Below are positions 1-29,570 of a stretch of DNA of 64,000 nucleotides, one piece after another. Source of the stretch: Amyloporia xantha (Eukaryota; Basidiomycota; Agaricomycetes; Polyporales; Adustoporiaceae); the NCBI GenBank assembly GCA_036971615.1, contig JAYKKR010000053.1, positions 62,001-126,000 on the forward strand, read 5' to 3'. The first letter of the stretch is position 1. Each line of letters opens with the position of its first letter. The translations under genes and the position numbers were made by a program. A model generated the notes under the pieces. That model did not search any database, was not told where the DNA came from, and saw nothing but the letters and a program-made list of their open reading frames with translations.

Positions 1-335
1 TCTTGTGCCCCTTAAGTTCAATGGCCCACGTCGTCACGGTTGTGGTTTTCACTCCCTCTACATCTTGCCTTAGCGTCTCGAGTCAGTCTGATACACGCTG
101 GAAAAGACACCTTCAGGCTGTCCAATAAGTCTTGCAGCCTCCCTGCTGATGCCGGGATACTTATAATTCAAGATGTCCCTGCCAGAGACTCAGGACTTCT
201 CACAGACGAATCTTTGGATGGAGTGCGATGTGTGTCCCCGTGAGCAGAGAAATTCCAGCTGTGGGTCATTGATCTTATTGTCTCTGTTGTGCTGTTCATC
301 TTGACCGTAGTCAATAGTGGCGTGCTCAAAACATC

Positions 336-564
336 ATGAAGAGCGCCGTCAGCAAGCTCTATGCGATCATTGGTGCCAAAGACCAGGAGCTGGTGCAGGT
401 ACGCCGAAATATTCCTCTTTAAGTGTGATCGGAGGCGCTGAATCGCCGCATGTCGATGCAAGGACATTCCCGAGACCCACGACGTGGACTTGTTCCTCCA
501 GAACCTCACTCGGAAGGCTGCTGCCTTGCGCGACGACCCTACGACGGCTCTCGGAGACACATGA
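336..564 (+). CDS. Small two-exon hypothetical protein
   Basis: I do not recognise this protein. A reading frame starts at ATG 336 (MKSAVSKLYAIIGAKD), meets a GTACGC donor at 399 and an AG acceptor ending at 462, and continues in phase to TGA at 562-564, giving 54 residues. The second exon is rich in charged residues (RKAAALRDDPTTALG) and could form helices. The 64-base intron and the preserved phase support a real gene. It may instead be the 5' remnant of a longer gene, because the protein stops abruptly and nothing convincing follows. Confidence 0.35.
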
Positions 565-1142
565 GGCTGCTGACAGCATGGCATTGACACTGCCACGAGG
601 CCATCCGGTAGGTGCTCGATGCTGTCGACTGTGATCTCGCTCGCTGACGGCCGTAGCTAAGGTGAAGCTCGATGCAGCAATGGGTGGAGATTGCCCCATG
701 GACCTTCAAGTTTAGGCATGCAGGCAGGCATGTAGGCGCAACGTTTATAGGCCATCAATGTATAGTACTACTACCAGTAGCACGGGCCACCGTTGAATGC
801 ATTTGATTCTAGTCATTACAAATTAGTGATTACGGAAGGAACCAATATCCCAACAACTCGCTCTGTAGTGACAGAATAGTGGCTAAGGAGTAAATATCGC
901 GGAGGTGCTACTACTTCTTCTAGTAGAAGCAACATGACAGTCGCTGTGTGGCATAGTGCATGTCGCGGTAGGGCTGCTGTGACGGATCGTGCCCGAGACA
1001 CTATCTAGCAACTAGGTACCGCATCTGATCTCTAGCCGCATGGCGCTGTCCGATGTAGCGGCGACGGCCACGACCTCCACGATATTGGCCAGTGTCCTAC
1101 CTAGTGCCCAGGAAACTAATTTGGCAAAAACGCAGTGCATTA
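565..1142. other. Intergenic, nothing recognised
   Basis: Only short overlapping frames in several phases, with no splice-consistent gene. It includes an AT-rich patch with short imperfect repeats near 760-920. Confidence 0.4.
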
Positions 1143-2448: not shown

Positions 2449-3561
2449 TATGGAGATGTGGTACAGGTCGTCATAGGTCCGTGAGACAATACACTCCTGC
2501 ATATCTGCTGTGAATATGTGAGAGCAGTGCTTCGAAGATGACCATTGCAATTTACAACTGTAGGTCAGTTGGTGCTCTTAATGACGGTCTCGGTACTGTA
2601 TAGTACTCATCGACTTGCACCCATGGCCCACGTTGGACCATAGTCAGTAAGGAGCGGCGGCCATCCCTCGAAGCAGCTCGCCTTTTTATTCCATAGCGGC
2701 TGTAGCTCATGTTTGCGCGATAAAAAAAGCAGTCGCACGACGCAAGCAGCACCAGGTATGGGGAGACAGTGTGTCCCGAATATAGTTCCTTCCTCTACAG
2801 AAGGGTTAGACCTCTGTCTCGCAGATGAGTTAGTAAGACAAGTCTTAGTTTAGTTGACAGTTCACCGACCTCCACAGCGCCTGAAACAGCTCGTGCGGCC
2901 TCCATTGCCGATCGGGACTTCGGGCGATTCCACGCCGTGATTGCCCTGTTGACGTAGGCACACTCAAGTACACCTGGCCATTGTAGAGGAAGGTAGTCAG
3001 CTGCTGCGGGATATTCGACGTTGGTAATATGAACGACGCACTTGGATCGTTGATGAAAGGTAGCGCGAACATCAATTGCAGTGCGAGATAATGATGACTT
3101 CATGTTTCCTTGCAGTGAGGACTTCTGGGATGGAACCGCCATTGTCCTCGACGCTTTTAACCATAAGCACTGGCCAGACCCAGTCACTGGAACACAAGGC
3201 AGTCAGCCACTGCGTCAGGCTCCATGTATAGTGGGACGTACTTGTACATTGATGGTGATTGTCTCCCAATCCCAATCATGTCAAAAGGTTTGTCTTCGGC
3301 GGCATGAGCGCCCATGCCTCTGTGGTTCCATTGCGGTCCTTTGGCGGTTGCCGTTACGGAAGTGCGGAGGCAGTGGTTGACGATTGAATCAGGGAGTTCG
3401 AGGTGAAGTTGTGCATGCATATGTATCATCTGTGCGACAGATAGTACTGGAAGGCAACACCACCAGTATCCGAGAATGTGGATTCTGCGTGAACCGTACG
3501 GTCTATGAAGGGGGAGGGGGGGCGAATGCTCCTCGTTACTGGGTGGGATGGGGTCTTTATA
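2449..3561 (-). other. Cassette gene U1 (small variable gene family), probable coding unit
   Basis: Read on the minus strand, a TATAAAG box at 3561-3555 is followed about 165 bases later by the conserved element TCCCTGATTCAATCGTCA (3395-3378) and, 0.95 kb downstream, by the end element (2466-2449). An open frame starts at about 3423 (MHAQLHLELPDSIV). A later segment, near 2850-2990, contains WPGVLECAYVNRAITAW and AARAVSGAVE before a GT donor, matching exon 2 of the intact family members at 7801-8445 and 14809-15502. A final segment (about 2560-2700) contains RGPWVQVDEYY. I could not trace one continuous spliced frame, so it may be decayed or have unusual splicing. Confidence 0.45.
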
Positions 3562-3999
3562 TCCTACTCGGCTAGTAGCATCTGTCGTCAAAGCATACGT
3601 CAATATGTCAGGAGGCCCAGCCAACGCTTTGACCGACGTCTTCCCCTAACTGTCGTGCCATGACTAACGTATGGCTTCGTTTGCTCGAACTTTCGTTAGT
3701 GGACCGACCGCGCAGGAGTGTATCCAAAAAACTAGAATTGACAATCTCTATCTCGAAAAAATGGGAAGAACAAAGCATACATGTGTGAGTCTAGAGAAAC
3801 GGAATAAGAATATGGTTTACACTGACGTGTAATAAGAGGAAATGTGTGTGATGTTTCAAGAGCTTACTACATGCACGATGAACGAAGAGCGTGCACCAGT
3901 GGATACGACGAATGCGACCTGTCGACAAACTGATATGGAGACATGCATAAATGAATGGAATGATGCCGATTTCATGATGATCTCTGAGACACTTGAATC
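3562..3999. other. Intergenic between cassette U1 and the first HTH gene
   Basis: Upstream region of cassette U1; no gene recognised. Confidence 0.4.
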
Positions 4000-5289
4000 T
4001 CAGTATGCCCCCGCTAGCCTCTCGCCTTGTTCAGCTTGAACAAGAGGACTGATTGTTCGCTGGAGAGACTGGTTATGTATTGTTTCATTTGCTTGCGCCA
4101 GGGTATCACGGATAGTGATTAGCTGGTTATATCGAAGCGCCGGGATCAAGTCAGCGTTTCCGTCGAAAAAGGCTACGAGCTTGTCGGCGGCGTGTTTCAT
4201 CTCGGACAATGATGGCATGTGCTTCGAGCGTCGATCATCTTCCCTAGAAACAGTGGGTAAGGGTGGAGAGCTCGACGTAGCATGTAGTTCCACGACCGGT
4301 AGATCTTCAAAGCGCGGAGGTTCATCGCCCATAGGTATATCGTAGGTAGCCCTCCCATCGCCGAGAACGTGCCCTTGACTATCGACCGCAATCATGATCC
4401 ATCTACGCGGTGGAGAAGAAGGGGCATTCGGGTCTACCATAGGAAGGTCTCGCAAGTCCGGATACTCCTCTATCTCGGGGATGTCGTACCTCGTATTCCC
4501 ATCCTTATCGAGGTTCTCCGGGAACGCTGCTATGGCCCGATCGTACGCATCGGGAGCCATGTCTTTTGTGCGATTTGGGTCTCCAGTCCAATTGAACGCC
4601 ATCCTCTTCTCAAGGAAGGATCCTGTGCCAACAAATTGGCCATTTACGATCCCTTCTCGCTTCTTGAAATCTCTGAGCCACGTTCGACTGAGTTTGCATT
4701 GGGAAAACAGAGATTCCCTCTCTTTGATAATCCTTTTAGCCTCGCTCCTTAATAGTGCGTTCGTGAGTTCTGCGCCTTCAGCAGCACGGTCTCGTACACG
4801 ACTTGAAAGCAGTGTCTCAAGACCCGGATATCTCTGTGTGCTACAATTTTCAATGAGGACTAGTTACCGAACTGTCGAGCGAAGTACTAACCTCTTTTTG
4901 AAATATTTGTCAGTCACGAATTTCTTTGGATCTGCCCAAAAGGACTGCCTCTTCAGCGTCTTACTGACAGTACTGCGACTGACACCGAAGACAAGAGCGA
5001 TCGCCTCCTGAGTCATTTTTGGATTGTCCTTTCGATACAGGCAGATCTTTTGGCGATCTAAAGTCGAGACGCGTGCTTTGCGATGCGTCGCGCGTGTGAT
5101 GACACCCGTACGCTGTGGCGAAACAAAAGGGCCCCGGCGTGACGCGGGAACATGGTTGTATATGATTATAGGAGAGCTGCCGCGTGAAGTCCACATGGGC
5201 GAATGGTTCACACTGGAGGCATCAGTGGACCATTGTGGAGGCAAGAGATGGTTTCTGGGATTATGGTGCGCTCGCGAATCTTGTGTCAC
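4000..5289 (-). CDS. HTH protein 1: CENP-B/transposase-type helix-turn-helix domains
   Basis: A likely nuclear DNA-binding protein. The first domain contains TLDRQKICLYRKDNPKMTQE followed by IALVFGVSRSTVSK, the pattern of the psq/CENP-B N-terminal HTH. After a 51-base intron (4891-4841, phase 2) comes a second CENP-B-like HTH with AKRIIKERESLFSQCKLSRT and WLRDFKKREGI. The C-terminal half has DAYDRAIAAFPENLDKDG and acidic-proline stretches (DLPMVDP, DLPVVEL). There is no DDE catalytic domain, so it is not an autonomous transposase. The two mapped exons give 412 codons without an ATG: the 5' end is open and an upstream exon within about 5350-5536 is likely. Its paralogue lies at 12948-14326. 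Function as a regulator is inferred. Confidence 0.75.
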
Positions 5290-5652
5290 AAAAACAGGCT
5301 CTCGATGCGCGTGCGCGATGGAATTTGTCGCAAACGCTAGAGAGCGGTGGACGCCCTATTATTAAATCAGCAACGACCTTCGGAATATACAAGTGACCGA
5401 CAAGTACAGAGTGAATCAAGGACGCTCCCGGATTATCAGAGCCGGAGACGGGACTGTATTGAGAATTGAAAGACATGAACTGGTGTGACTTGTGTGTGTG
5501 CCACTCCGTCCCGTATATCAGGCAGTCAGGAATCACCGGCGAGGTCCGATTACATAAATGGAGCCTCTATGGGGACAACTAGACGCCGCTAACCCTAAGA
5601 TAACGCGCTGCAAATTAATTCAGAAAATAGACCATTTCTGCTGTGATTTATT

Positions 5653-6254
5653 GCCGTTTGCAGTAAAGATGGCGGTGGCGCGTTTCCCGCGCGTTTCGCG
5701 CATATTCCTACCTGAAACTTCCGACCCCATTATCTCGACAACCGCGGTGCGGATTCCTAGACATAGGGGGTGTTTCGGGATCTACTCTTTGAGGGCTTTA
5801 CAGCCCCATAGTTTTTATGCCGAAATGTTCACTTGGTAGCACGCACCTCTAGGGGCCCTTGTAGCTACTTGTTGCCCCTGTATCTCGACAACTACAATGT
5901 ATTTTAACATAATTCTTGAATCAATACATTCTGTGAGAGGCCCAAAAGTGAGCGCCGTTTGCAGTAAAGATGGCGGTGGCGCGTTTCCCGCGCGTTTCGC
6001 GCATATTCCTACCTGAAACTTCCGACCCCATTATCTCGACAACCGCGGTGCGGATTCCTAGACATAGGGGGTGTTTCGGGATCTACTCTTTGAGGGCTTT
6101 ACAGCCCCATAGTTTTTATGCCGAAATGTTCACTTGGTAGCACGCACCTCTAGGGGCCCTTGTAGCTACTTGTTGCCCCTGTATCTCGACAACTACAATG
6201 TATTTTAACATAATTCTTGAATCAATACATTCTGTGAGAGGCCCAAAAGTGAGC
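5653..6254 (+). repeat. Two tandem 301-base copies of the inverted-repeat arm
   Basis: Units 5653-5953 and 5954-6254 appear identical by eye, and the third copy (6993 down to about 6693) is inverted. The near-identity implies recent duplication or gene conversion. Confidence 0.9.
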
Positions 6255-6398
6255 CCCAGCAAAAGAAACCACCGCTGTGTGTGTGTGCATGCATGCAAAA
6301 GATGATCGCCGCGCCGCCACCTTCTGCGTGCGACTTCTTCGCTTATACCGCTATCATAAATCTGCCCTACTATATCTCATAATTCCATGACTCAGCAC

Positions 6399-6568
6399 CG
6401 TACTGGATGCACCAGAGTCCAAGTCACAGTACCAAAGCACTTGTAATCTGCCAGCAGCCATTCAATTGTCTGTCTCTTGCAGCCAGTGTAGCGAGAAATG
6501 GACGAGATATCGGTTGAGTGAGCCATGTTGATCAAGACCTCACAGAGGTCATCTGACAAAGGCTTGCC
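6399..6568 (-). pseudogene. Tc1-like transposase N-terminal fragment
   Basis: Minus-strand translation gives GKPLSDDLCEVLINMAHS, then ISRYTGCKRQTIEWLLADYK, the helix-turn-helix start of fungal Tc1/mariner-type transposases (compare the family pattern IS.YTGVS.R...RIL). The catalytic DDE part is absent, so the element cannot move on its own. Confidence 0.6.
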
Positions 6569-7039
6569 TCAGGCCATCCATAGAAAGACGTCGTGAGTGT
6601 GTCGAGACAAGAGTTGCGGGCAGAAGGTGGCAGCGGGGCAATCATCTTTCGCATACATGCACACACACACAGCGGTGGTTTCTTTTGCTGGGGCTCACTT
6701 TTGGGCCTCTCACAGAATGTATTGATTCAAGAATTATGTTAAAATACATTGTAGTTGTCGAGATACAGGGGCAACAAGTAGCTACAAGGGCCCCTAGAGG
6801 TGCGTGCTACCAAGTGAACATTTCGGCATAAAAACTATGGGGCTGTAAAGCCCTCAAAGAGTAGATCCCGAAACACCCCCTATGTCTAGGAATCCGCACC
6901 GCGGTTGTCGAGATAATGGGGTCGGAAGTTTCAGGTAGGAATATGCGCGAAACGCGCGGGAAACGCGCCACCGCCATCTTTACTGCAAACGGCAATAAAT
7001 TAGCGTTTTTCTGTATTAAGAAATCGTGAGAATTGCATT

Positions 7040-7294
7040 CACTGGGTGCATAGCCCATTTTAGTGCTTGAAAAATCGAGAAACTTATCTTAGAAAGAATC
7101 ATTCTTTTATCTTGGTTTTTCTTATGTCAATATGTGATTCAAAACTTGAGCAAAACATGGAAATATGATGAATTCATGAATAAACTAAGAAAAATTTCAC
7201 ATTTTTCTATGAGAAAAAGGTGTAGAAAAGAATGATTTTGCTCAGGAAATTATTCATGATTTGCTCGGGTATAAAACAGGCTATGCACCCTGTG
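7040..7294. mobile_element. MITE-like AT-rich element
   Basis: The ends are imperfect inverted repeats: CACTGGGTGCATAGCC at the left and, on the opposite strand at the right, CACAGGGTGCATAGCC. The interior of about 210 bases is very AT-rich and non-coding. ATT flanks both ends and could be a 3-base target duplication. Confidence 0.5.
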
Positions 7295-7800
7295 ATTAGA
7301 GGAGCTGGCGCCCCACAGCCTCCAAAATCATGTGCAGGGTGTGCTGGTTTACGACGGGCAATAGAGACACCAGAATTGCTTCATGTTTACCATGGGTGCT
7401 AGCAATTGAGATGGTAGGAGTATTACATAGAGTCGACTAGCAGTACTACGAGTTACTTCAAGTTTTAATACACCAGATCTCATCTTCATTCAAGTTGAGA
7501 AATTTCGTCATACCTGTTCAAAAAACATTAAGTGGAGCTTGAAATAACATTATCATTAGTCTGATTTAAATCCTAGCAGAAATGCTCTAATATGGCGCGC
7601 TTATAACGCGAGAAAAAAGTGGCAGGAGAAACAATTTTGGAAATTTAGCATCGGAATATATGATACATTATGCGGCGTATATTAAGGGAAGTAAAATGGA
7701 GATACAATACGAAGACCGATAAACGCAACTTGAAGGCGAGACAGGTGCAGATGACGATACAAGAATGTTAGAGGATACAGAGAAGCAGACACCACAGCTA
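7295..7800. other. Intergenic, nothing recognised
   Basis: AT-rich sequence downstream of the gene at 7801-8445; no supported coding region. Confidence 0.4.
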
Positions 7801-8445
7801 TTACAAGTCAAGCTCTATGTCTGCTCTGAATACGTTGGAGCCAACCCAATGTATTGAGACAATGTAAATGTCGCCAATTTCGACTTGTCTCGACCCTGCG
7901 ATGTAGTGTGGACACTTTGAGTGTCCATCGTAATAAGCCTGTCTACATGTCTGTGTACGGCTCGGTTTAGTGTCAATAGATGGCTCACGAACTCATAGAA
8001 AACTGACCCGTATCGCCTCGTTTACTGCCCTCCCTGTCTCCACGGCCAACAATGTTCGTGTTAAGTACTGCGTACTTACCTCCCAGTCTATAAACGAGCA
8101 GGGAGAGGCCCCCGGCCACTGCAAATCAGTCAGGATACGCGATGTCTAAAATGTATTACACTGAATAGAGCACACCTGGATGTTTATGACGAGGCTATCC
8201 AACCCCCGAAAAGGTATCGAAGTATCCGTAAGCTGCAAGCCCGTGCCATAAGTAATGAGATGGAGGACTGATATGCCAGATTTCGCAGGTCGTCCACGCA
8301 TGTCGAAGTCAACAGTGAGACCTCTAGGTAGGAACATCAACGGAGCCGCCAGGAATGCCATCGGGATGTCAAGCTGAGGAAGAGGGTACCGAGCCCGAGC
8401 ACGTCGACTGTTCGTCACAGTCAATACTCGTGTTGTCACAGACAT
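7801..8445 (-). CDS. Small variable family member A4 (three exons, 172 aa)
   Basis: Function unknown. Exons 8445-8176, 8118-8008 and 7938-7801 encode 90, 37 and 45 residues plus stop; both introns are phase 0. Exon 1 contains LTVDFDMRGRPAKSGIS and ends SLVINIQ. Exon 2 is WPG...FIDWEVSTQYLTRTLL then AVETGRAVNEAIR. Exon 3 ends with IGDIYIVSIHWVGSNVFRAD and IELDL. The same exon layout and motifs appear in the genes at 11756, 14809 and 16892. No signal peptide or membrane segment is evident. A TATAAA box lies 84 bases upstream of the ATG. Conserved phase with heavily diverged sequence argues for an expressed protein family under fast evolution. Confidence 0.75.
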
Positions 8446-8528
8446 CGCAGCAGATATTCGGATGTTGCAGACACAGGAGGCCTTTGTGAGGACTAGTATT
8501 CTGAAGGCAAGACATCGTCGTTCAGGGG

Positions 8529-8534
8529 TTTATA
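8529..8534 (-). promoter_or_regulatory. TATA box of family member A4
   Basis: TATAAA on the minus strand, 84-89 bases before the ATG at 8445, the spacing seen for the other family members. Confidence 0.55.
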
Positions 8535-8539
8535 AATTC

Positions 8540-10210
8540 CAATACAAAGGGCTTGAGCTGCCTCGTAGAACAGACAAAGCTCGACTGTGCCATGCTTGGA
8601 TGAAGATAGCTTGCGAACCAAAGAGCAAAGCACAGAGAGCGTCTCAAGTTGTTAAGCGAGCGTATGCTCAAAGCAGTCTATCGCTTCGAAAGCTCTTGGG
8701 CTTGACAAGCTTGTTCAAGTCCATCCATTCGGTCCAATTTGTCTGGGAGAATTGCAATGTTACAGCACCAGCGATAGTCTAGGTCCAACAGGAGCGAGCG
8801 CGATACCTAGCGTAACCCAGCCCAAAAGTTAAGCAGCAGCTGAAGCAAGTAATTGCTCCACGGAGGAAGGCGGTTATGATTTGCACAGCAGGGCCCAAAC
8901 CCATAGTGGCCCTTTCCGGTCGGTATTCTTTTCGATTCTTCCCCCAGAGTGCTTAACTTTTGTAGAAAGCGCGTCTTATCGTCCAAGCCGTCCAGAGCAG
9001 AAGGGTATGATGATTGCAGAATCTTGTAGAAAGTACCCCAGATCATGCATGCTCGATCAAGTCTGTGCGGTCAGTCAAAGCAGAATTTTGGAAAGCAGAG
9101 CGTACGTGTTCTAAGAATTTGAGCCATGTCGCATCACCAGATCAGTTGTGCCTCTCCCTCAGGGTAGGATGTTGGCACATAATCGTCCTATGACAGGTCA
9201 GAGATGTAAGCAGATGCTCTCGCCACGAACAAGAGTACAGGTTGTCAGCGCTTCAGCGACAGCGGAGGCTGGTCGTACGTTGGCAAAGCGAGTACGCACG
9301 TGCCCACTGCCCACTGGCAGCGATGCCTCGTTGGCCGTCTCATCCAAACTCCCAGGATCCTACCTATAATGCTCTTATACTTATAAATTCACCTATTCAC
9401 GGCCCCCAATTTACACACAATTGGTGTCCTTCATTCACTATATACGCTGGGTGAAGGGTCTTTCAACTGCAGTCTCACTTCACAATTAGCAGCGCCCCGA
9501 AACAGTCAACGACTATGTTTCCATCAGCCTTTGTGAGCAGAGTGCTATATATTTCCCTCAACTTTCACTGGCTCCTGAGAATGTCTGTAGCCTTTACGAT
9601 GTATTCGGCCAGCAAGCGATCGGTCTTGAGAAGATTTCGTGTTCATCTCACACATAAGGATGACTTCATGTCACAAACGACCTGCTGCAGCAAGCAGGCA
9701 CACAGTTGTGCGTATCTCGTTCATTCATAATACAAGTGAGAGGTAGAGGAGAGACAGATTTTACCCTTCTGCGCCCTATTTGATAGTCATTTGGCTGCAC
9801 TTCGTGCAAATGCTATAATCCCGACAACGATTCTTCTTGCGTGTCGCACACCAGCGCGTTCGATGAACATGCCTCGAGATCCAAGAATGCCGCTCAACAT
9901 TTGATCTGACTAGGCAATGTCCGGCAGAATCTTGTGAATACCCTTGCTCACCCCTGATAACTTCGCCAGACAGTCTATCTGTTCTTCACTTTACAGTGTT
10001 CCGAAGGTCCTTGGACTGTTGTGACACGAGATTGTTGTCTGCTCATGTCTCACGCATTTCTTTCATACATTATAACACTTAGGCTCAGAGGTGCAATATA
10101 CCGGGGCGATTCCTGTGTGTCCAACCGTACGCCGCCTACGTAATCGCGCATGCCGGGAACAACCGTCACTCGGTGTCATCGGTACATCATTGAATAGAAA
10201 CAAGAAACAA
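8540..10210. other. Intergenic, no supported gene
   Basis: Several short open frames in different phases (for example 8462-8782 and 9515-9730) show no family motifs or splice continuity. A decayed cassette cannot be excluded. Confidence 0.35.
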
Positions 10211-11167
10211 GGAGATGTGGTACAAGGCACTCGATTCGCGTGGAAACCTTTTAGACTGGTATGCAATGGCGTGTTAGTCTGACATGCTCAGTGGAACTAA
10301 TATACACGTCTTCTATACTTGTACTGCTTCCAGAGTTCTGTATCACTGTTGGATCAGAAATGCATTCATCGGGTACAAGGAGATAAACCAACCTCAAGGG
10401 CCTTCGGTGCGACCAGCGCAAATTTCTTTCGCGGGTGCATTTGAACTACGCTTCATGCCCCGTAGGACCGGGATCCTACATACTCATGCGCGTGCCGTTG
10501 ATCCAGGGCGCTCCTGGTTAAAAGGTCGTCAGACATGGGATATATCAAGACTTCGACGTGAAATGCGAAGCTGTATCTTGACCAGGATGGTCATAGAGCA
10601 CCAGCGATGATTGAACTGATTACCCACTTCAATGCGTTGCAGTGCCCTGCCCATGGTCCACGATGAAATGCGGCTGGAAGTCCTTGCAAAAAGGATACAT
10701 ATTTCCCACTCGATTGGCATGGGGATTTAGAAGGGAGGTCTGCTTCCGTCTTTGGTCCATTTAATCGCCTATGTCATGGCCCACGTCGAAAGTGCGCTCA
10801 AGCAAATATAGGTTTGGGTGGCTTGAGCGGTAATTCGAACATGCCTCGGTGGTGACAAGTTGGGAACCTTCCTTCACCACACCAAACATGCATTTTTCTA
10901 GTCACCCATGCTCCTGGTGTAGGGCTAGACTACAGCATTCCAACAGTGTCAACAAAGGAATGTGATGAGGGCGGCATAAAACCCTAGCGATTCCTCAGGC
11001 GCTGCACGAAAGCTTTGTTTTGCGACGCTTGATGATTGAATCAGAAAGTCGGGTTCGATGAGTTGATAACACATCGTGTGAATAAAAAGAAAAGGTAAGG
11101 TGCGTGCAGGTATGAAACAGAATTCCGCACTGACATCTGATTGGAAGGAACACCCATCTTCGCCCAA
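10211..11167 (-). other. Cassette U2, probably degenerate
   Basis: On the minus strand the conserved element TTTCTGATTCAATCATCA lies at 11047-11030 and a diverged end element at 10228-10211, in the same order and orientation as in the other cassettes. The element falls in an open frame from about 11080 (MCYQLIEPDFLIQSSS), a different frame from the one used in U1, U4, U6 and U7. No clear TATA box and no complete family exon 2 were found. Confidence 0.4.
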
Positions 11168-11689
11168 TGGGATCCGGCTTCATACCTGGGCGAGGGCTGT
11201 GACCCTGTGGCCGCGGCCGTGTGCCGTCAGGAGTACGCTTTGTCTATACTTTTGATTGAGTCAAATTCTGCCCCGCGGTATATCGCTTACCACTCCAAGC
11301 AGGCGCATGAACTCACAATCAGCTATACTTTGTCTTGCTGATTGAAAACCACGCGTTCGACATGAGTAGGGAAAAATTTACTTACCATCATCTCCGAATG
11401 TGGCCACGCCCTAGTCAAAAGACACGACGATAAAGGAACAAGTCAGCGTGCTCTGATAAGTAATGGGTCGCGATTATAATTCCTGTGCCATATAAAAGGC
11501 TATGGAGACGCTAATGGCATGGAGACGCTAATGGCATGGCGACCTCGGACTGTGGTCAGATAGGAGCCGCGCCACTGGCCCACAGGATGAGAGAGAAGGA
11601 CAATCTCGATCGTGCCACAAGTGTGGACCAACGCTCAGGCCCTTCTGAAACGCGCTTGAGCCAGGTAGAAATAAGCATGGCCCCTACAC
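11168..11689 (+). other. Upstream region of A1 with extra TATA box and short tandem repeat
   Basis: A second TATAAAAGG lies at about 11491. A 17-base unit, ATGGAGACGCTAATGGC, is repeated in tandem at 11502-11535. A 68-residue open frame (11536-11742) precedes A1 and has no family motif; it is probably 5' leader. Confidence 0.4.
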
Positions 11690-11694
11690 CGTAC

Positions 11695-11700
11695 TATAAA
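11695..11700 (+). promoter_or_regulatory. TATA box of family member A1
   Basis: TATAAAGG, 56-61 bases before the ATG at 11756. Confidence 0.55.
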
Positions 11701-11755
11701 GGCACGGGTAGTCTGCAACAGCTCCCTTCATTCCTCTCCTAGCTCTTCCCTCCAA

Positions 11756-12446
11756 ATGGCCAATCCACTGGCAATTCCTGACGACTTTGACCCCCTTCTT
11801 GGTCGCCGTGTTCGCCTCCCTCAGACCCCGTACGAGTTTCCTACAGTGGTCAGACGATCAAAAAGACCACCGCCAGTTGTAGACACCGTGTCCTTCAACC
11901 TCATCGATAAACACAACGTAGCCGGTGTTCCTCTACTTGATGTTGCCGGTTGGGCAGTGGGCGGGCAAGTCGACGAAGGCGTGACGGAGACCATGGTCGG
12001 CGGCAGTGACGAGATATTCGACGGGTCGAATCTCAAGCTCATCACACTAAATGTCCAAGTTCGTCTTTGTCACCGATATCACAGGAGTAAATTCTGATCT
12101 GCGATGCAGTGGCCCTCGTATGGATATAACCTCAACAAGGATCTCCCTGTATATCGCAAGGGAAAATACATCACTCGCGCGCATTTGGCGGCGGACATCT
12201 GCACCAATGTCCTTTTCCTAATGATGGTTGGTCGAGTGCTTTATCTTAGACGAACTTTATCCTTACATCACTGCCCCGCAGAACTTTCAGGACGTTTCTC
12301 GGGACGGCGAGAAGACCGAGTGGACAATTGACCGGGACAACATCCGTCCTGAGCATATGGTTTTGGTCTCTATAACTCCATTACATGGCAAAGTATTCCG
12401 CGTCGACTTGGACGTGAGCTTTCCCATTTCGGATTCCACTTCATGA
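11756..12446 (+). CDS. Small variable family member A1 (three exons, 194 aa)
   Basis: Function unknown. Exons 11756-12058, 12110-12226 and 12282-12446 encode 101, 39 and 54 residues; introns are 51 and 55 bases, both phase 0. Exon 1 contains VDTVSFNLIDKHNVAGV and ends LKLITLNVQ. Exon 2 starts WPSYGYNLNKDLPVYRKG and continues KYITRAHLAADI. Exon 3 contains TEWTIDRDNIRPEHMVLVSI then TPLHGKVFRVDLDV. These blocks match the genes at 7801, 14809 and 16892. The region is short of hydrophobic stretches, so a soluble protein is likely. The start is the first ATG after the TATA box that opens the conserved frame. Confidence 0.78.
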
Positions 12447-12947
12447 ATCATGTTCCACTTTTACATAATGAATCTCTTCGAAATAGACGTTCGAAAATAG
12501 CTAAGTAATGCAAAGCGAATACATGAAGTAGTACCGAAGGAGTAATCACGATTCAGGCAGGAAAGGGAAATTAGGGCGCACTTCGAAAAAGCATAGAAGA
12601 CAAAGTGAATAGGCAAACCACAACCGGAACAAGACGTGTACAATCGTGAAGTTGAGTGAAGTGTCGAGCAATCCGAAAAGGAAAATATCAAGAAAACCAG
12701 GATGACCACAAGGGACACTGCCTCCAAAGAAAGGCCTACTGGCATATATAGGTACATGCAACTACTCGATGTTCGGACACGGTAACCAACCAGCTAGGCG
12801 TCTTTGGGCCAAGATTTCACGAAAATCAGGGGAATAGCACGAGGTCTCGGAGAACCAGCGTCGTTATCTCCGCCGACAAGTAAAGAGTACTGACTGTCGT
12901 GGGTACCCGCAATGGGAGTCAGGCGATGGGAAGCGATATATAGGCCT
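12447..12947. other. Intergenic, with an eroded continuation of the HTH2 repeat
   Basis: Immediately beyond the HTH2 stop, minus-strand translation at about 12890-12947 resembles one more copy of its C-terminal repeat with the stop inside it. The rest shows no gene. Confidence 0.45.
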
Positions 12948-14326
12948 CTATGCATCAACGTCAATGATGGGAGGACCTTCGATACGTCTCGGCTCTCTAG
13001 TAGATGTGTCGGATGCAGGCGAGAGAGAATGATGCCTCGCCCAGTATGCCTCCACATCAATAACAGGAGGATTTTCGACGCTCATAGGCTCGTCAGTGGA
13101 CGTATCGGACTCTGGGGTTGGGGAGCGATACATTTCTCGGAGTGCGTCCAAGTCAGGGGGTAGGAGATCTTCTTGGCATAATGGCTCGTTAGCCTCCTCA
13201 GGTATGTCGATAATTCCATCCGCGTCCAGGTTCTCTGGCAATGCATTCAATACTCGGTCGTACGCATCCAGAGTGTGGACGGAGTCGCCGTGAACTTTGA
13301 AAGCCTCAACTCTCTCTGCACGCTCACCCATCACACAAAATGCTCCTCCATAAATCCCGTATCGCCTTTTGAAGTTGGTGCACCAAGTCGGACTAGCTTT
13401 GAAATCAGGTAATATACCAAGATCTTTCGCAACCTCCTTGGCTTTTGACCTAACCGTAGCGTCCGTAATGCGTCGTTTTGGGAAGGCGTCCTTCCGTAAT
13501 CGCTTGGCAAGTGTTTCCTCGACGGACCAATATCGACTATAACTAAAATACAGGTGAACGATGGCCTACATACTGAGCGGATATGTTCATACCTTCGCTT
13601 GCAATACTTCTCCGATACGATTTTTCTGGGATGGGTCCAGACCTCATATTCTTGCAAGATTTTGCACACAGTAGACCGACTGACACCAAAAACAGCAGCG
13701 ATCTGCTCCTGCGTCAGAGTAGGATGATCGTTTTTGTAGAGACATATATTCTGACGATCCAGGGTTGTCACGGTAGCCTTGTTATGAGCTGCTCGTTTGA
13801 TTCCTGAAGCGCCATCGAGGGAACTAACATATCGATTTCGGCGGCGCGGCTTCCTGGCTTTTGAGCGAGTCAAGGGTGGAGACGGGGCATGCAACACCAA
13901 CGACTGAGACGGTTCAGATACATTGTTTGTATCAAATTCATTAGATTGGTCTTCACTGGAGTCAGCCGTCTCCGAATCTTGTTGGACTGCTTTGTGAACG
14001 TGTAAATGAGAGGTCTCATGATTCTGGAAGGGTCACGGTGCGACGCATGGAGCTGCAATTAGTGTCTCCCTGACCACAACGTAGACGAAAATACACACTT
14101 CGACAGTTTCACTGGACGAAGATGTATCTAATGTGACTCGCTGGCGGTTCAAAGTCCTGGAATCAGTGCCAACTTGCAATCGCATCGAATCGATCATCCT
14201 CACTTCAAGGATGTCGCAATCAAGTCCTGATTCCCTCACAGGAAGAATAGATGGCAGATTATGGATGGAGAAATCCCGCTGAGTGTTCGGGATATCTGAG
14301 GAGGCGTCGCATACGTCTAAAGGCAT
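12948..14326 (-). CDS. HTH protein 2: CENP-B-type helix-turn-helix domains with C-terminal tandem repeats
   Basis: A likely DNA-binding nuclear protein. Exons 14326-14099, 14023-13593 and 13536-12948 splice in frame to 415 residues (introns 75 and 56 bases). A basic segment (RSKARKPRRRNR) precedes the first HTH, with TLDRQNICLYKNDHPTLTQE and IAAVFGVSRSTVCKILQE. The second HTH has AKEVAKDLGILPDFKASPT and WCTNFKRRYGI. Then comes DAYDRVLNALPENLDADG, shared with HTH1. The C-terminus has repeats of the form PP(V/I)ID(V)(E/D)AY...H..SP.SDTST. No DDE catalytic domain follows. The size nearly equals that of HTH1, which suggests a duplicated domesticated family. The start at 14326 (MPLDVCDASS) is the best ATG in the frame; an earlier one is possible. 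Confidence 0.78.
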
Positions 14327-14808
14327 GCCCGAGTAGGTCGTATGCGATACTGATAAACAGATCAGATTTCCCTCCTGTGTTTGAGCCAAGCTGAAGGAAA
14401 TGAAACTGATCAGATGACTCTGTTCAACGAGAAATGCTAACATGCCTTTGATCAAATTTGCAACGCAAGCAGTGACAATTTAATTACACAGGATCTCGCT
14501 TCTAAGTTCAAAGTTCAAAGGCTGTCGATTGAGTGCCACTCGCAGACTCGTGTTAGTCACGTGGGTAACGCGATCACGTGAGGCACGTCGCTATCAAATC
14601 AAACCCGTAGTACAAGCCAAGTAGACATTCGTACCAAAGGCTATGTATATGGAACGAACAGTGACATAACATTTCATAGATATCAAGCGAGACAGGACGT
14701 CGGAGACATGATTCCTAGGGATACAGAATGTTTAACGATACAGAATGCCTAATGATACACGGAACACCGCCTATGCCACATAAGTTATGAGATCTCAGGA
14801 TCCAAATC
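14327..14808. other. Intergenic between HTH2 and A2
   Basis: Shared region with HTH2 reading away to the left and the end of A2 to the right. It contains direct short repeats (GATACAGAATG at about 14718 and 14738). No gene recognised. Confidence 0.4.
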
Positions 14809-15502
14809 TTATGGGCGTATGTATAATTTTGGCCGCCAGATGTCCTGACCGTAGTAATCAATCGCATAGAGATAGACATCTGCTATACTGGGGGGGTTCT
14901 CGGAAACCTGCACTCTTCAATGTTCAGAGACTTAGTTACTAGTGGACAAGGAGATGAACGAACCTCGATAGCATCCTGTATCGCCCGTGCCACATCCTTC
15001 GCCAGGGCCCCCTTAGAAATGTATTGTTCACCACTAAAAACGCGGATGTTCCTATTCACAGATGCACCCAACAGAGAGCCCGGCAACTATGGAGCAAAAT
15101 GATCTACAAGATGAGCGGAGCGCAAGGATGGGGGAGCACAATACAGACCTGAACCTGAACCTGAATGGTACAAGAGTTCCATTTGCGCTTGACAGGTTTG
15201 AAGCCGTCCTTGATGCGTTGCTCAGCCAAGGCCAACGGCCACGATGAAAGTTCATGCAAAGGTATCGCACTCGTCACAGAGCTTTCGGCGAGTTCAAAAA
15301 ACACTCCATTGATGCGTTGAGGTGTCAATCCAGATTTCGCCTTTGAGTCCGCCTGCAGAAATGTGGGTTCCAGGGACTGCTCTTTTATAGAGCGGGCCAC
15401 CAGGCCAGGGTCCGCCTTCAAGTCCGTTTCCAGAGGTGCTTGTTCCAGGGGCTTCTGAACGCATTTAGGAGTAGAGGAGGCTTTGAGACCAGTATTCGAC
15501 AT
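14809..15502 (-). CDS. Small variable family member A2 (three exons, 191 aa)
   Basis: Function unknown. Exons 15502-15149, 15086-14964 and 14907-14809 encode 118, 41 and 32 residues with phase-0 introns of 62 and 56 bases. Exon 1 ends TIQVQVQ, where hexamers repeat just before the donor. Exon 2 reads LPGSLLGASVNRNIRVFSGE then QYISKGALAKDVARAIQDAI. Exon 3 contains SIADVYLYAIDYYGQDIW and ends KLYIRP. Exon 2 aligns with those of A1, A3 and A4, and the exon 3 motif is shorter than in the others. A TATAAAT box lies 87-93 bases upstream. Confidence 0.75.
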
Positions 15503-15588
15503 AAGCAGCAATTATGTGTGAGGAAACGAGTGTTGAAACAGGAGAAGTTCGACGAGATGAGTTGTTCTGTGTGGTTCATAGCTGCGCG

Positions 15589-15595
15589 ATTTATA
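15589..15595 (-). promoter_or_regulatory. TATA box of family member A2
   Basis: TATAAAT on the minus strand, 87-93 bases before the ATG at 15502. Confidence 0.5.
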
Positions 15596-15993
15596 CCCCT
15601 GTAAGTAGCGGTAGTGTGGCCGTATTCAAGCAAGACAAAGCTGAAGCCTTGCGGAGACGCGTTCCGAACGGTCATAGCCCAGTGAGCGAAGCTAAAGCAG
15701 CCACTATCAGGGGCGGAGTGATCGTCAAAGCAAGTTGAATCTGTTCCCAAGCCCTCGGAAACGCGCTTTAATGGACGCGTTCCGTTCATCCAATCTTCCT
15801 GAAATCAACTTTCTGTCGCAGCACCAGCAAAAGTACACCATCCAATACGCGTCCCGAGCAAAATGACGCGTAAAAACACGCTCTTGAAGTATCTCAGAGT
15901 GCGAGAAAACATCCTCCACACGACCAAATCGAGCAACAGAAGGGCACAGATCTATAGAGCTGAATTCTGAAGGCCCATGGGTCTGATCCCCGG

Positions 15994-16560
15994 TTGGCGT
16001 TCTTCAAGGTTCTTTTCCATAAGCGCGTGGCCTGTGGTTATTGAGCGCCCAGAAAGGAAGATAGGGGTTTGTGTATAATACGCGGAGTTCGGCTGCCGAG
16101 ATGTGCCAGCCGTGGGCCACCTCAAAGCAATGGTAAGCGCGTATCTAGGGAACAAGTAGCATCCGCCATTGTGCTTCTCGCCGGGGGCCACCGGCGAGTT
16201 CTGGGCGTCCAGTTCTAGTCCAGTCGCAATTTCCAGCGTATAGGTAGCTTTCCATGAGTGAATGAGAGTATAGAGAGACTGAGAAACGCGTTCTTGCGAG
16301 AGCTGCAGCAGACGGACGGAAGGCTGAGGAGAGACGTCACGGGCGCTTACGGCCAGAAGTTAGCGATGGGACTGATCTCGATCGACGCTTGACTGGACGA
16401 CGGCGAAAACCGAAAGGCCACGGTCTCCTTTTGGTCATTCTTGTACTTTAACCTTCAAGATCTACATCGCTCAAAGTAGTCTGGCAACATGGCACCGCGT
16501 CTAGCCACGACTTCTTGAGACTGGAAGTTCCAGGTCGCAGATTTATTCTGTTTGTTTTTT
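15994..16560 (+). repeat. Diverged direct repeat, left copy, ending in a decayed tRNA
   Basis: The order of blocks (AAGCGCGTGGC, GTGGGCCAC, CATTGTGCTT, GGGGCCACCGG, GAGTTCTGGGCGTC, GAGACTGAGAAACGCGTTC, GAGCTGCAGC) is repeated in the right copy at 18120-18665. The match extends through the tRNA-like sequence at the end. Confidence 0.75.
16481..16545 (+). pseudogene. Decayed tRNA-Arg copy
   Basis: It occupies the same place in the left repeat as the intact tRNA-Arg in the right repeat. It keeps ATGGCACCGCGTCT of the D arm region and CCAGGTCGCAG near the T arm, but the acceptor and T stems no longer pair. Confidence 0.55.
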
Positions 16561-16820
16561 TCAACGCCACACCACACTGACGTTCAATCTACCAGACGAG
16601 TTCGGTCTTACAACAGTAACAAATTATACACCAACATACAAAGGGGAGCGTGGTGGAGTAGGCACTGTTGAATGATCACGCTCATGAAGCTCACAACGCA
16701 TAACCCCTATATTCTCAATCTCGATAGAATGTGCCTAGGGCTGCGCATAACCGCTTGCCTCAAGAAATGCTTTGATTTACGATCAACTGGCCACGTCCGT
16801 CGTGTGGCCATGCCCAACAG

Positions 16821-16827
16821 TATAAAG
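16821..16827 (+). promoter_or_regulatory. TATA box of family member A3
   Basis: TATAAAGG, 65-71 bases before the ATG at 16892. Confidence 0.55.
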
Positions 16828-16891
16828 GGACACCATGATAATGGCACTCATCCTCCACTACTCTTCCTGGTCAACATCTTGATTCTGCTCA

Positions 16892-17658
16892 ATGTCTTCT
16901 GTCAACTCCCCGCCTGTCGCAGACTCTCCCAGGATGGCACGTGCTGCTGCGATGAGACGTTCGCGCCTCGCGGCCGCCGCCAGTCGGGCGACAAATCCTC
17001 CGCCGCGATGTCCAACACCACCTCCCACCCGCCACACGCCAAGATACCTGATGGACGCGAGCGCCAAACGCGTCCCAATCCCACAAACGCGCCTCATCCA
17101 CCCGCTCAACCTTGGCCGGACCGCGATTCGCGCACAGTTTGCCTACGCCGCGAAGCCTGACGAGATTGGAGTGAATTTGCACGATCTGTTCAGGGATGTA
17201 CCGTCCGTCACTCGTACAGTCCTCCACGGCGATCTCACCGTCGACGAAATCGGCCTGGGTGAGTTCAGGGCCATCATCGTCAATGTGCAAGTCAGTCCGC
17301 TTCTCTGATACGTCGATGGAAGCGTACTGATATCGCTCCGCAGTGGCCCACATATACTGAGGTCCTTAACGAGGAGATTGTCGTGAAACGCCTAGGCAAG
17401 TTCATCACGGTGGGGCGCTTCGTGTATGATCTCGTTTACAAGCTCTTCCTACATGTTGAGGTCGGTGCATTGGACCCTTCTTCGCTGTGTCTTGCTTATT
17501 CTTACGGTTTGCAGCATCTGGGGTACACAGCAAACTCGCCCATGACGAACGAGTGGGCCGTGAGCGTTGAGAGGATACAGGCCCCAGATATCGCGCTCGT
17601 GGGCATAACACAGCTCCATGGGAGGGTGTTCCGAGTCGGGTTGGATGTATGGCAATAG
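16892..17658 (+). CDS. Small variable family member A3 (three exons, 219 aa)
   Basis: Function unknown. Exons 16892-17290, 17344-17460 and 17515-17658 encode 133, 39 and 47 residues with phase-0 introns of 53 and 54 bases. Exon 1 has a proline- and arginine-rich start and ends FRAIIVNVQ. Exon 2 is WPTYTEVLNEEIVVKRLGKF followed by ITVGRFVYDLVYKL. Exon 3 contains NEWAVSVERIQAPDIALVGI then TQLHGRVFRVGLDVWQ. Exon 2 has exactly the codon count of A1. The gene lies between the two direct repeat copies. Confidence 0.78.
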
Positions 17659-18119
17659 TGGAAAGCGTGATGCACGATACCCATCGTCGTTTCGCTTATC
17701 CCTCTTGTCGTCGTGCCGGTTTTATGATTCTTCTTGCCCTCCATGTTATGTCAATATCAATCTTGTGTATTCGGTGGCCGGATTCACCAAACGGTGGCCC
17801 CATGAGAGGAAGGCATCCTGTCAGCACCATATCAATGTTTACATTGATCTTGTCACGTAGGCTTCTAGCATCTCACAGAATCAACCGAACCGATGGCACT
17901 TCTGAGGATGCAGAAACTGAACACGCACTGCTCCTCCATTAAAGCATTCGCCGTTGCAGCGTGCGCTTCTCTCGCGCTACCAGTGAGTTCTAGGCACCCA
18001 GGGGCCAGTTCTAGTCCAACGGCGCGTTCCGTCGCGTAAACAGCTTTCCATGAATGAATACAAGCACAAAGAGGCCCAGTAACGCGTCAGTGCGACAGCG
18101 GCCCAAAAGATTGATCGCT
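17659..18119. other. Intergenic with a partial third copy of the direct repeat
   Basis: At about 17985-18060 the block GAGTTCTAGGCACCCAGG through AGCTTTCCATGAATGAAT repeats the central part of both direct repeats. No gene seen. Confidence 0.5.
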
Positions 18120-18665
18120 GGTGGGCGTTCTCTTCCAGAAGCGCGTGGCTGTGCCTAAAGAGTGTCATCGAGCCCTGAAACAAAGAGTAGAGGTTTGGGT
18201 AAAATACTGCGGAGTGCGGAAGCCGGAAAACGACAGCAGTGGGCCACAGAGCAATGGCAAAGTCGTATCCAGGGGACAGGTGAGAGCCGTCCATTGTGCT
18301 TGCGGCCAGGGGCCACCGGGGAGTTCTGGGCGTCTGGTTCTAGCCCAATCGCGCGTTATATCGCGTAAACAGATTTATAAGAGTGAATGAGAATATGAAG
18401 AGACTGAGAAACGCGTTCGTGCAAGAGCTGCAGCGGGCGAAGGGAAGGATGAAGAGACACGACATGGGCGCTTACATTTGGACGTAGCGTTGAAAGCCAA
18501 TCTCGATCGCTCAGCGCTGCAGGTTCTGAGTGGTATCTCACTTTGGTGGCAGCTATATATGACAGAATTCATGGAAGTGCGAGGCCGACTGGCGAAATGG
18601 CATCGCGTCTGACTACGATTTCGTCAATCAGGAGATTGCAGGTTCGACCCCTGCGTCGGTCATAC
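18120..18665 (+). repeat. Diverged direct repeat, right copy, ending in an intact tRNA-Arg
   Basis: Collinear with 15994-16560 over about 550 bases with many substitutions and small indels. The 3' end carries the tRNA gene. Confidence 0.75.
18583..18662 (+). tRNA. tRNA-Arg (anticodon ACG) with an 8-base intron
   Basis: Acceptor stem GGCCGAC (18583-18589) pairs with GTCGGTC (18655-18661) with one G-U. The D stem is GCGA/TCGC, the anticodon stem TCTGA/TCAGG, and the T stem GCAGG/CCTGC with loop TTCGACC; A18662 is the discriminator. The anticodon loop CTACGA is followed by an 8-base insert (TTTCGTCA) before the last loop base, the normal position for tRNA introns after base 37. The TTTT at 18685 could end Pol III transcription. 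Confidence 0.85.
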
Positions 18666-20657: not shown

Positions 20658-23600
20658 ATGGCCGTCGACGTGTGCAGCGGGCACGACCTGCTCTCCTTCT
20701 CCAGCCCCTGCAGCCGCAACTTCTGGAGCGCCGTCGTCCCCGCCGTCTTTGTCCTCGCCGTCCTCCTCACCTCCGTCCCTGCCCCATCTTTCGCACAAAA
20801 ACCCCTCAACGTCGTTAAGCAGCCGTTCCGCAACTTCCTCACCCTTCCTGAAGCGGAAGCCCTCGATGCAGGCGAGGAGCCCGTGGACGGCGAAGTGACC
20901 GCGGACGTTGCGCCCGTGCCACTCTGGCGCAGTCTCCTCCTGTCCTGGCTAGCCCTCGTCGAGGCGCTGCTGTGGCTCGGCGTCGGCTGCTACAACTTTG
21001 TCGTGCGCACAGAAGACACTTCGAGCGCGCTCCCACCGTTTCTCCTCGCTTTTTCATGGCTGTATGCTGCCGTCCGACCCGTCGCCGCTCCTGCCGCCAC
21101 GCCCCCCTTCGATCTCTGTGGCTTATACACTCTGCAGCTCATCTCGAGCGTGCTCACGTTCGGCGGGGTGCTCTTCGACCACAGCGTGCGTGGCCTGCCT
21201 CTGCCTGCGCCGCTGGCGCTCGCTGCCGACATAGCGAACCTGGTCGCCATCGTCGTCGTGCTGACGGTGATGCTGAACATGCCCGTGGGCACACCCGGCA
21301 AGAGTGTCAACAAGGATGACATTGTAAGTGGCTCGTCTATCCTCGATGCGTGAATACAGAGGAGAGTTTCCCCGATCCTCTCGAATCGCAAGTCTGAGAC
21401 GTGTGGATCAGGGATGCTGTCTCACATTGGGGGTGATGAATGATGCTCGTGCTCCCAAAGGCATACAAGCATGGGCAGAGCAGGTTAAATGTCTGGCCAC
21501 AATTTGCATCTCCGGCGCTCAGGATATTCAACCAGTTCGGACTATATGCGACCGACATGTAGAGTCCGAACATCCATCCTTGCCCCCAGCGATCGGGATC
21601 TTCTCTTTGTTTCCTGGCATATCACTCACACCACGTCAGGGACACTCGATCTCTCCCGAAGATTACACAACGCTCTGGGGCTGGATGTCCTTCCAGTGGA
21701 TTCTGCCTTTGGTAGAACGTGTATGTCCGCTCATATTTCTTCTGTGCACACTCCGTCGCTTACAACTACGTTTACAGGGCACGTACACGATGCTCAGCGA
21801 ATCCGACGTGTGGAAGCTCAGCCCGACGATGCAAGCGCGGCCGCTGTACATCAAATTCAGCCAGACCGCGCGCGCGACGCTGCTCCGCCGGCTGTGGGCG
21901 GCCAACTCGCTCGACCTCCTGCTCGACTTTGTGCTGACGTACGTGAGCGTCGTGTTCAACTACGCGAGCCCGTTCTTCCTCAAGCGCATCCTCGACTCGC
22001 TCGACGCGCGCGAGGCGACGGAGGAGAAGCATGCGCTAGCGTATATATATGCCGTGCTGGCGTTCGTGTCTACGCTGTGCAAGGTGCGTCGGAGTGGCGC
22101 TGGATGGGCGGGGCGTGGCTGATGTGGAGATATGTGCAGGCGCAGGCTGATGTGCAGCATCTGTGGTTTGGCCGGCGTGCGGCGACGCGCATCCGGTCAG
22201 AGCTGATGGCGGCGATCTATGACAAGGCGCTGAAGCGGAAGGACTTCTCTGGGATCGTTGACAAGGACGCAGGGAAGAGTGCGAAGGGGCCCGATGCGAA
22301 GGGTGAGTTATATATGTGGTGGAGACGTGGTGGACCGCGTCGCTCATGAATGACTTTTTTACGCAGGCAAAGCGGACCCCAAGGCGGACGACCCTAAGGC
22401 CGGTGCGGACATTGGGAAGATTGTCAACCTTATGGCGGGTGACGCGAATAGGGTATGCCCGTGCTGGGTTTATGTCGAAGAGTCTGAACTGACGGCTTTG
22501 CCTGCTGTAGATCTCGCAGGTGGTCTCTGGATCGTACTTTATCTATGGAGGTGAGCATCGCTGCTGCACTGCTTTTGAACAGTATCCCTAAATTTTCGTT
22601 AGCTCCCTTCGAAATTCTCATTGCCACTGTATTCCTGTACCAGTGAGTCCTAGATTGAGTGATCCTGAGGCCGATTCTCACACTGTCTGCAGACTTCTCG
22701 GGATCTCTGCCTTTGCCGGGTTTTTCGTCCTCGTCGTAAGCTGGCCCGTCAACAGCTTCGTTTCCAAACGGGCGGTGCGCATCCAGAAGGGTGTCTCCAA
22801 CGCTCGAGACAAGCGCATGGGCGTACTGAACGAGCTTATTGGCGCTGTGAGTTTTTCTACGCGTATTTTTATGAGGAATCGTGATTGAACGTAGTCCTCG
22901 TGGTTTAGGTCAAATTCATCAAATTCTTCGCTTGGGAGGATCGTTGGATCGAGCGTGCGATGGAGGCGCGTGAGGTTGAGATGCAGTGGATGATCAAGTG
23001 TAGGTCGACCCCGACTTGTTGGCTGCGTGCGGTTCTCATATTTTGGAACAGCGCGCGTGAACTCGGTCTGTTTCTCGCTCATCTGGATCTGTGCGCCCAT
23101 CATGGTGTCAGTCACGTCGTTCTTTGTCTATATCCTGCAGGGGAACGAGTTGACTGTCGGGACGGCGTTCACTGTGAGTTTCGTGTCTGTGCATGAGGAC
23201 GTCTGATTTACTTTTTGTGTGTGCAGGCTATCGCTTTGTTTGGCATGGTCAGGTAGGATAAGCGTTTCGCTTGGATACCGACGGAGTCTCACAAGGATTT
23301 CACAGGGCTCCTCTCAATGTCATTCCTGCGTGGATCGTCCAGATTCTTCAGGTATGTCTGTCGACGTGAAGTTGTACGGTCGATCTGATACTACTCTATG
23401 TCCAGGCCGGTGTCGCTATGGACCGAATTGCGACCTACCTGGATGAGGATGAAGTGGACGAGCAGGTGTCCACCCTCAAACGCGGTCGCGCACCGCCGAG
23501 CACCGAAGAGGAACAGGGGCTCGGTATCAGCAATGGGACGTTCAAATGGAACGAGGTTGAAGAGGCCAAGGATAAGGACAAGCAGAAGCCGGCCAGCCAG

Positions 23601-29194: not shown

Positions 29195-29570
29195 GGGTAG
29201 GAGGCGAGGTATGTACGATTGGTGTGTGTGTATGACTTGTACTAGCTTTGCCAAAATTGCATATACGCTGATTGCATGTGTCGTTGGCCTCTGTTTTCTG
29301 GAGTTCATTGGACTATGTATCGTACACTCTGCTAATTAGCTTCAATGCGATGTAGTCATTTGGTTTTTGTAACCCCCAGACTGACGAGGAGAATGATAAA
29401 CGGACATATGTTCTCAGCAAGCTGAGGTTGATTTGCATAAAAATACAAATGCTCGACTGTTGGCCGACGATGAAATGCGGAGTCGGCGACCTTCCTTTTC
29501 GGGAAAAGTACGGCCTGCTCTTTGCCACCAACCTCCTGCACGGCTCCGAGCTCAATTTCTCTACAAAACG
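29195..29570. other. Intergenic, nothing recognised
   Basis: 3' region of the membrane protein gene and promoter of the bL31m gene. Confidence 0.4.

Follow-up and report, generated by a model that had tools for sequence, protein, structure and literature searches.

Mushroom mating-type loci, with their HD1/HD2 pairs and STE3/pheromone genes, are idiomorphic blocks of multiple pairs that combine very diverged alleles with a DNA-binding component, and their HD pairs are divergently transcribed. The het-B locus of Podospora anserina comprises the genes Bh and Bp, and both incompatibility and trans-species polymorphism are reported for it (PMC10890737). For basidiomycetes, Auxier et al. 2021 (PMC8229728) state that non-mating self/non-self genetics 'remains unclear' and that its mechanisms 'remain completely unknown'. 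Here we describe a 64,000-nucleotide stretch of Amyloporia xantha DNA (the window; bases 62001-126000 of the 154,098-bp contig C49, JAYKKR010000053.1, in a 46.8-Mb assembly of 60 contigs) that contains a block present in two collinear, diverged versions, the second lying on contig C3. Two members of a gene family probably related to DUF6741, genes A and C, each head a cassette with a CENP-B-like gene in this block, which we tentatively read, as a possibility worth serious weight, as a self/non-self recognition locus. Contigs C1, C2, C15 and C58, named below, belong to the same genome. The features are as follows, with primes marking C3 alleles or counterparts.

Window about 3694-15590: idiomorph-like block, collinear with C3:112.7-134.4k, its DNA alignable only in pieces (67-77% identity), between flanks of 87% (left) and about 95% (right) identity.
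Window 7801-8445, minus strand: gene A, exons 8176-8445, 8008-8118 and 7801-7938 (90/37/46 codons), upstream of HTH2; positional counterpart on C3, H.
Window 11756-12446, plus strand: gene B, exons 11756-12058, 12110-12226 and 12282-12446 (101/39/55 codons), intact on C49.
Window 14809-15502, minus strand: gene C, exons 15149-15502, 14964-15086 and 14809-14907 (118/41/33 codons), upstream of HTH1; positional allele on C3, F.
Window 16892-17658, plus strand: gene D, exons 16892-17290, 17344-17460 and 17515-17658 (133/39/48 codons), outside the divergent block; allele, D'.
Window 12948-14032, minus strand: HTH1, CENP-B-like bipartite DNA-binding protein (Psq-like helix-turn-helix plus HTH_Tnp_Tc5), with a 50-nt intron in the modelled part and an approximate N-terminal end.
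Window 4000-5355, minus strand: HTH2, second CENP-B-like gene, following A on the same strand with miniature inverted-repeat transposable elements (MITEs) between.
C3:114265-115347: HTH1', allele of HTH1.
C3:133735-134361: HTH2', counterpart of HTH2 with a shorter C-terminus.
C3:112806-113513: F, exon 2 of 41 codons, intact as judged by sequence.
C3:132043-132718: H, exon 2 of 39 codons, intact as judged by sequence.
C49:53394-54077: G, exon 2 of 41 codons, intact as judged by sequence.
Window 2795-3202, minus strand: E, decayed member in which a 37-codon exon-2-like stretch remains and the AG acceptor is gone (by eye), within a stretch 87% identical to C3:270930-273419.
Window 10571-10714, minus strand: decayed C-type exon 1, with a similar remnant at the matching place on C3, 126577-126876.

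C49 is collinear with C3 over about 60 kb, in reverse order, and the flanks compared have 87-99% DNA identity. The two contigs are presumably two nuclear haplotypes of one strain, and allelism between these two haplotypes, the only ones compared and both from one genome, is inferred from collinearity. The pairs D/D', C/F, HTH1/HTH1', B and its decayed counterpart (C3:115839-116089, at the matching place), the C-type remnants, A/H and HTH2/HTH2' occur in shared order and relative strand on both contigs, and beyond HTH2 on C49 come the E stretch and then G, both matched on C3. On the left, window 1142-3693 matches C3:270.9-273.4k at 87%, the G region (C49:53-54k) matches C3:279.5k and C49:30-40k matches C3:319-334k in four pieces at 94-97%; on the other side of the block, C49:77.6-83.4k matches C3:106.9-112.7k at 93.6%.

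Within this map, the proteins of the two block versions share only 30-61% identity while gene order is kept. HTH1 and HTH1' are identical at 206 of 340 residues, with a synonymous divergence (dS) of 1.07 and a ratio of non-synonymous to synonymous divergence (dN/dS) of 0.25; HTH2/HTH2' share 80 of 187 residues, C/F 66 of 181 and A/H 45 of 150 (8.1 standard deviations (SD) over shuffled sequences). D and G each have near-identical alleles: D and D' agree at 217 of 219 residues (2 non-synonymous and 9 synonymous sites, dS 0.056, dN/dS 0.073), and G and G' at 182 of 188 (dS 0.045, dN/dS 0.31). The dS of HTH1 thus exceeds that of D, which lies within a few kilobases of it, about 19-fold; in a collinear map, this contrast would be expected of an idiomorphic locus kept by balancing selection. 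The right edge of the block is sharp, with identity per 100 bp at 92-100% over window 15,600-17,700 except in two bins (91% and 86%), and identity breaks down at the TATA box of C/F. At the left edge, the 87% match stops at window 3,693, about 300 bp past the HTH2 stop. Between HTH2' and the E stretch, C3 holds about 137 kb (C3:134.4-270.9k), compared with about 0.3 kb on C49, a difference that may reflect an insertion, a deletion or a misjoin. The portion that was read (C3:134.4-190k) contains a gypsy-type element at about 161-167k and an open reading frame (ORF) with a myosin motor domain. A LINE-type element lies at C3:116.9-122.4k, within the C3 version of the block.

An earlier sequence-only reading of this DNA had proposed that the family diverged under diversifying selection. 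The allele pairs that can be measured (D/D', G/G' and HTH1/HTH1') point the other way, to constraint, with dN/dS of 0.07-0.31. For C/F and A/H the ratio cannot be estimated because synonymous sites are saturated. The divergence looks like a reflection of great age, that of two old versions of one block, and not of measured positive selection.

The predicted gene models themselves stood up at the sequence level. Each of the four genes translates from ATG to stop over three exons, with GT-AG junctions and two phase-0 introns of 51-69 nt, and has an exon 2 of the length first given (37, 39, 41 and 39 codons in A to D). The coding model of D is further supported by the 9 synonymous versus 2 non-synonymous changes against D'. 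The TATA boxes noted upstream are also present, TATAAA beginning 89 (A), 61 (B), 93 (C) and 71 (D) bp 5' of the ATG. The same hexamer precedes F by 94 bp and H by 91 bp and is absent before G, which makes six of the seven distinct intact genes, compared with a 1.1% chance of finding TATAAA in the interval 50-110 bp before a randomly chosen position in C49. Two proposed sequence signatures hold in part: exon 1 ends in NIQ or NVQ in A, B and D and in QVQ in C, and the exon 2 motif is a poorer fit to A than to the other three genes.

That A-D form one strongly diverged family of fixed architecture was borne out by pairwise comparison, in which five of the six pairs exceed shuffled controls (B-D by 31.8 SD, A-C 9.4, B-C 9.0, A-D 6.3 and A-B 6.2; 1 of 300 shuffles reached the observed A-D score). 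The C-D pair does not (-0.7 SD), and these two genes are linked through B. At least three further predicted intact members, F, G and H, were found, and exon 2 measures 37-41 codons in all seven distinct intact members. H scores clearly above shuffled sequences in comparisons with A (8.1 SD), C (9.4 SD) and G (4.9 SD) but not with B (2.1 SD), D (1.3 SD) or F (1.8 SD), and a profile of C/F/G matches one of B/D with P 1.1e-5. Gene trees grouped only B with D (support 93/98) and left the rest unresolved, with long-branch warnings. In whole-genome searches with A-D and F as queries, whose counts are lower bounds, relatives were listed only on C49 and C3. They include decayed copies at 22k, 51k, 52.6k, 64.9k and 72.6k on C49 and at 115.8k, 126.6k, 280k, 342k and 373k on C3, those at C49:52.6k and C3:280k being paralogous decayed copies of B. 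An alignment of six members was scored against 7,998 protein-database candidates, in a search that needs shared 5-residue words, and none matched at E<=0.001; a search with D residues 100-219, in which 18 candidates were considered, gave none at E<=10. Polypore DUF6741 proteins are plentiful in that database (76 matches), so proteins like A-D are either very diverged or unannotated. A and B, the two members tried, had no match in NCBIfam, and a Protein Data Bank (PDB) sequence search with D gave no convincing match (best E 0.45).

The second component of each cassette is a putative DNA-binding protein. Each of the four partner proteins scores above the PF03221 (HTH_Tnp_Tc5) cut-off of 22.2 bits (HTH1 39.2, HTH2 32.9, HTH1' 33.1 and HTH2' 57.1), and positions 8-126 of the HTH1 query align with the DNA-binding domain of human CENP-B (1hlv, E 2.6e-4). 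In Pfam searches at E<=1 (HTH1 and HTH2) and E<=0.05 (HTH1' and HTH2'), no DDE catalytic domain was reported; a pogo/Tc5 transposase identity was rejected on this ground, as only the helix-turn-helix families of such elements match. In all four block positions (C-HTH1, A-HTH2, F-HTH1' and H-HTH2') a DUF6741-like gene comes first and a CENP-B-like gene follows it in the same orientation. G, D and this genome's DUF6741 gene had no CENP-B-like helix-turn-helix gene listed next to them. Among the matches listed, two more such genes were found, both on C15, where no relatives of A-D were listed. These two (299876-300351 and 625199-625674) are in opposite orientation, 325 kb apart and equally similar to HTH1; they could represent a duplication or an inverted haplotype join. 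Between A and HTH2 lie repeats, one of which is resolved as an element:

Window 5954-6993: MITE-like element with 382-nt inverted arms and many genomic copies, inserted between A and HTH2.

Additional repeat copies occupy window 7040-7591 in the same interval. Window 1-1137, 5954-6998 and 7040-7591 are multicopy repeats, mostly of 91-100% identity, with some copies of the first at 75-77%.

The sequence-only reading knew of no named family with this layout, a view that profile similarity and shared intron sites do not support, as they point to DUF6741 (Pfam PF20526). C and F match the Pfam model at 13.6 bits (E 0.078) and 16.9 bits (E 0.0076), with exons 2 and 3 accounting for most of each match; no Pfam match was obtained for A, B, D or G at E<=10, or for H at E<=0.05. 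Because these scores fall under the Pfam cut-off of 27 bits, we count the family not as a DUF6741 member but as a distant relative. Compared by hhalign with a profile of 36 DUF6741 proteins, the C/F/G profile gives P 1.8e-5 and a six-member family profile P 7.3e-6, with similarity running from the end of exon 1 through exons 2 and 3; the B/D profile alone is not significant (P 0.025). Pairwise scores against the DUF6741 protein were 4.6 (C), 4.9 (F), 2.2 (A), 2.5 (B), 1.2 (D), 0.4 (G) and -0.3 (H) SD over shuffles. The true DUF6741 gene of this genome, at C2:324.6-325.1k, has three matching exons and scores 227.7 bits as a spliced protein. Its middle exon has 38 codons and begins with W, and in this one gene read, the two phase-0 introns align column for column with those of C and F, an agreement to which the profile comparison is blind. 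Together, these data suggest that the A-D family probably consists of distant relatives of DUF6741. The two differ in their evolution: DUF6741 proper is conserved, with 62-89% identity to the copy in this genome among the 31 best matches (the nearest named proteins are polypore ones, such as that of Taiwanofungus camphoratus at 79%), and was found at one place in the genome, a lower bound, whereas A-D are highly diverged, multicopy and clustered. The DUF6741 core might be beta-grasp-like (ubiquitin-like), a weakly supported prediction; a PDB sequence search with the DUF6741 profile returned nothing at E<=1. DUF6699, a look-alike, was discarded, being absent from the Pfam matches of the family proteins.

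The remaining annotations concern neighbouring sequence. A tRNA-Arg (ACG) gene lies at window 18583-18662 (Rfam and ARAGORN agree), ORFs in window 57688-59497 match Pkinase_fungal (PF17667), and an ORF at C49:44049-45233 matches DUF6535 (PF20153) at 112.9 bits; a second ORF, at C49:24769-25719, resembles it by eye.

The sequence-only reading had suggested a role in recognition or conflict, and the genomic setting, a block in two versions, fits this suggestion. What the sequence provides is a set of spliceable open models, the cassettes, the collinear map, the right edge and the contrast between flanks and block; from these we infer a recognition function, the holding of both versions by balancing selection and a mechanism. 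In such a mechanism, each DUF6741-like protein would be an interaction partner of the DNA-binding protein encoded immediately downstream. How well the two bind would depend on whether the pair, drawn from two nuclei, is matched or mismatched, and this difference would be converted by the CENP-B-like protein into altered gene expression or chromatin. Several observations weigh against a recognition locus. C is equally close to F and to G, and A is equally close to H and to F. Collinearity is less clean next to D, where the adjoining stretch occurs twice on C3 (C49:82.0-84.2k matches C3:95.6-97.9k and 106.2-108.3k at 90-95%; copies at 95650-97868 and 106250-108283). Farther out, no long C3 match was listed for C49:84.2-91.9k (window 22215-29877), and although C49:91.9-94k matches C3:53-55k at 99%, its first 1.3 kb has two extra C3 copies (window 29878-31183 matches C3:53158-55287, 61840-63153 and 69704-71017). 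Finally, two haplotypes are compatible with introgression or paralogue exchange too.

Introgression of the block from another species, or its survival as one old structural haplotype, would imply a distant donor and no recognition role. The sharp right edge, the far greater divergence of block genes than of flanks and the further ~137 kb on C3 beside the block, with a retroelement in the part read, are all consistent with this. We nevertheless consider it unlikely, as divergence within the block is uneven (HTH1/HTH1' at dS 1.07, C/F and A/H saturated and other pieces at 67-77% DNA identity) and order, strand and pairing are preserved, with A, C, F and H all intact. It is similarly improbable that birth and death of a tandem family, with paralogue exchange and reciprocal loss in a repeat-rich region, made the positional alleles different paralogues whose difference is unselected. 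The many decayed copies on C49 and C3 are what such turnover would leave, and the two members of C/F, like those of A/H, are no more alike than paralogues are. However, HTH1 and HTH1' are 61% identical, against 39-44% to HTH2 or HTH2', and constrained (dN/dS 0.25); given this closeness and constraint and a dS about 19 times that of D, the partner gene, at least, looks like an old allelic pair, and the flanking members D and G have not been exchanged. A selfish killer/antidote locus (meiotic or nuclear drive), each version carrying its own killer and resistance genes, is very unlikely, for although linked strongly diverged pairs, version-specific content and nearby repeats would suit it, drivers are commonly present or absent and less often two collinear intact versions, and the proteins scanned have no toxin-type Pfam domain.

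The recognition-locus reading can be extended to a fuller claim, which we regard as doubtful but possible: that the block is a previously undescribed, multi-allelic polypore self/non-self locus outside both mating-type loci, built of tandem DUF6741-like and CENP-B-like pairs, and so a molecular candidate behind somatic incompatibility, or behind the pairing of nuclei, in a basidiomycete. Among the papers listed on somatic or heterokaryon incompatibility, trans-species polymorphism, basidiomycete CENP-B, divergent dikaryon haplotypes or DUF6699/DUF6535, none describes this locus in its title or abstract opening, and a literature search found no paper containing the word DUF6741. If the recognition reading is true, it would give DUF6741-like proteins their first biological context. 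For self-recognition outside mating in basidiomycetes, the block, with its sharp boundary, its repeated pairs of small genes and its two versions of apparently great age, is a concrete candidate, open to typing in populations and to removal in laboratory strains.

Compared with known systems, the block resembles mushroom mating-type loci in its multiple pairs, its diverged alleles and its DNA-binding component, whereas its cassettes are tandem, unlike the HD pairs. By content it is no mating-type locus: no homeodomain or STE3 match lies inside the block, the two PF05920 homeodomain matches being on C58 and C1, and the 24 STE3 matches comprising 21 at C3:786-838k (786011-838927) and 3 on C58. 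The C3 STE3 cluster is on the same contig as the other version of the block, about 650 kb away, and linkage might affect how the block is inherited. The partner genes differ from CENP-B and pogo-type proteins of the Abp1/Cbh1/Cbh2 type in sitting beside DUF6741-like genes and in showing allelic divergence. As at het-B of Podospora, where two adjacent genes are highly divergent allelic variants (PMC10890737), adjacent and highly divergent genes, presumably allelic between the two haplotypes, here lie inside conserved flanks. The proteins are different: in Bh a HET domain is combined with a lectin fold, and Bp resembles PII proteins (PMC10890737), whereas the block pairs DUF6741-like with CENP-B-like proteins. 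The anatomy of the block is that of a putative idiomorphic recognition locus whose layout is closest to het-B of Podospora, with other proteins in place of Bh and Bp.

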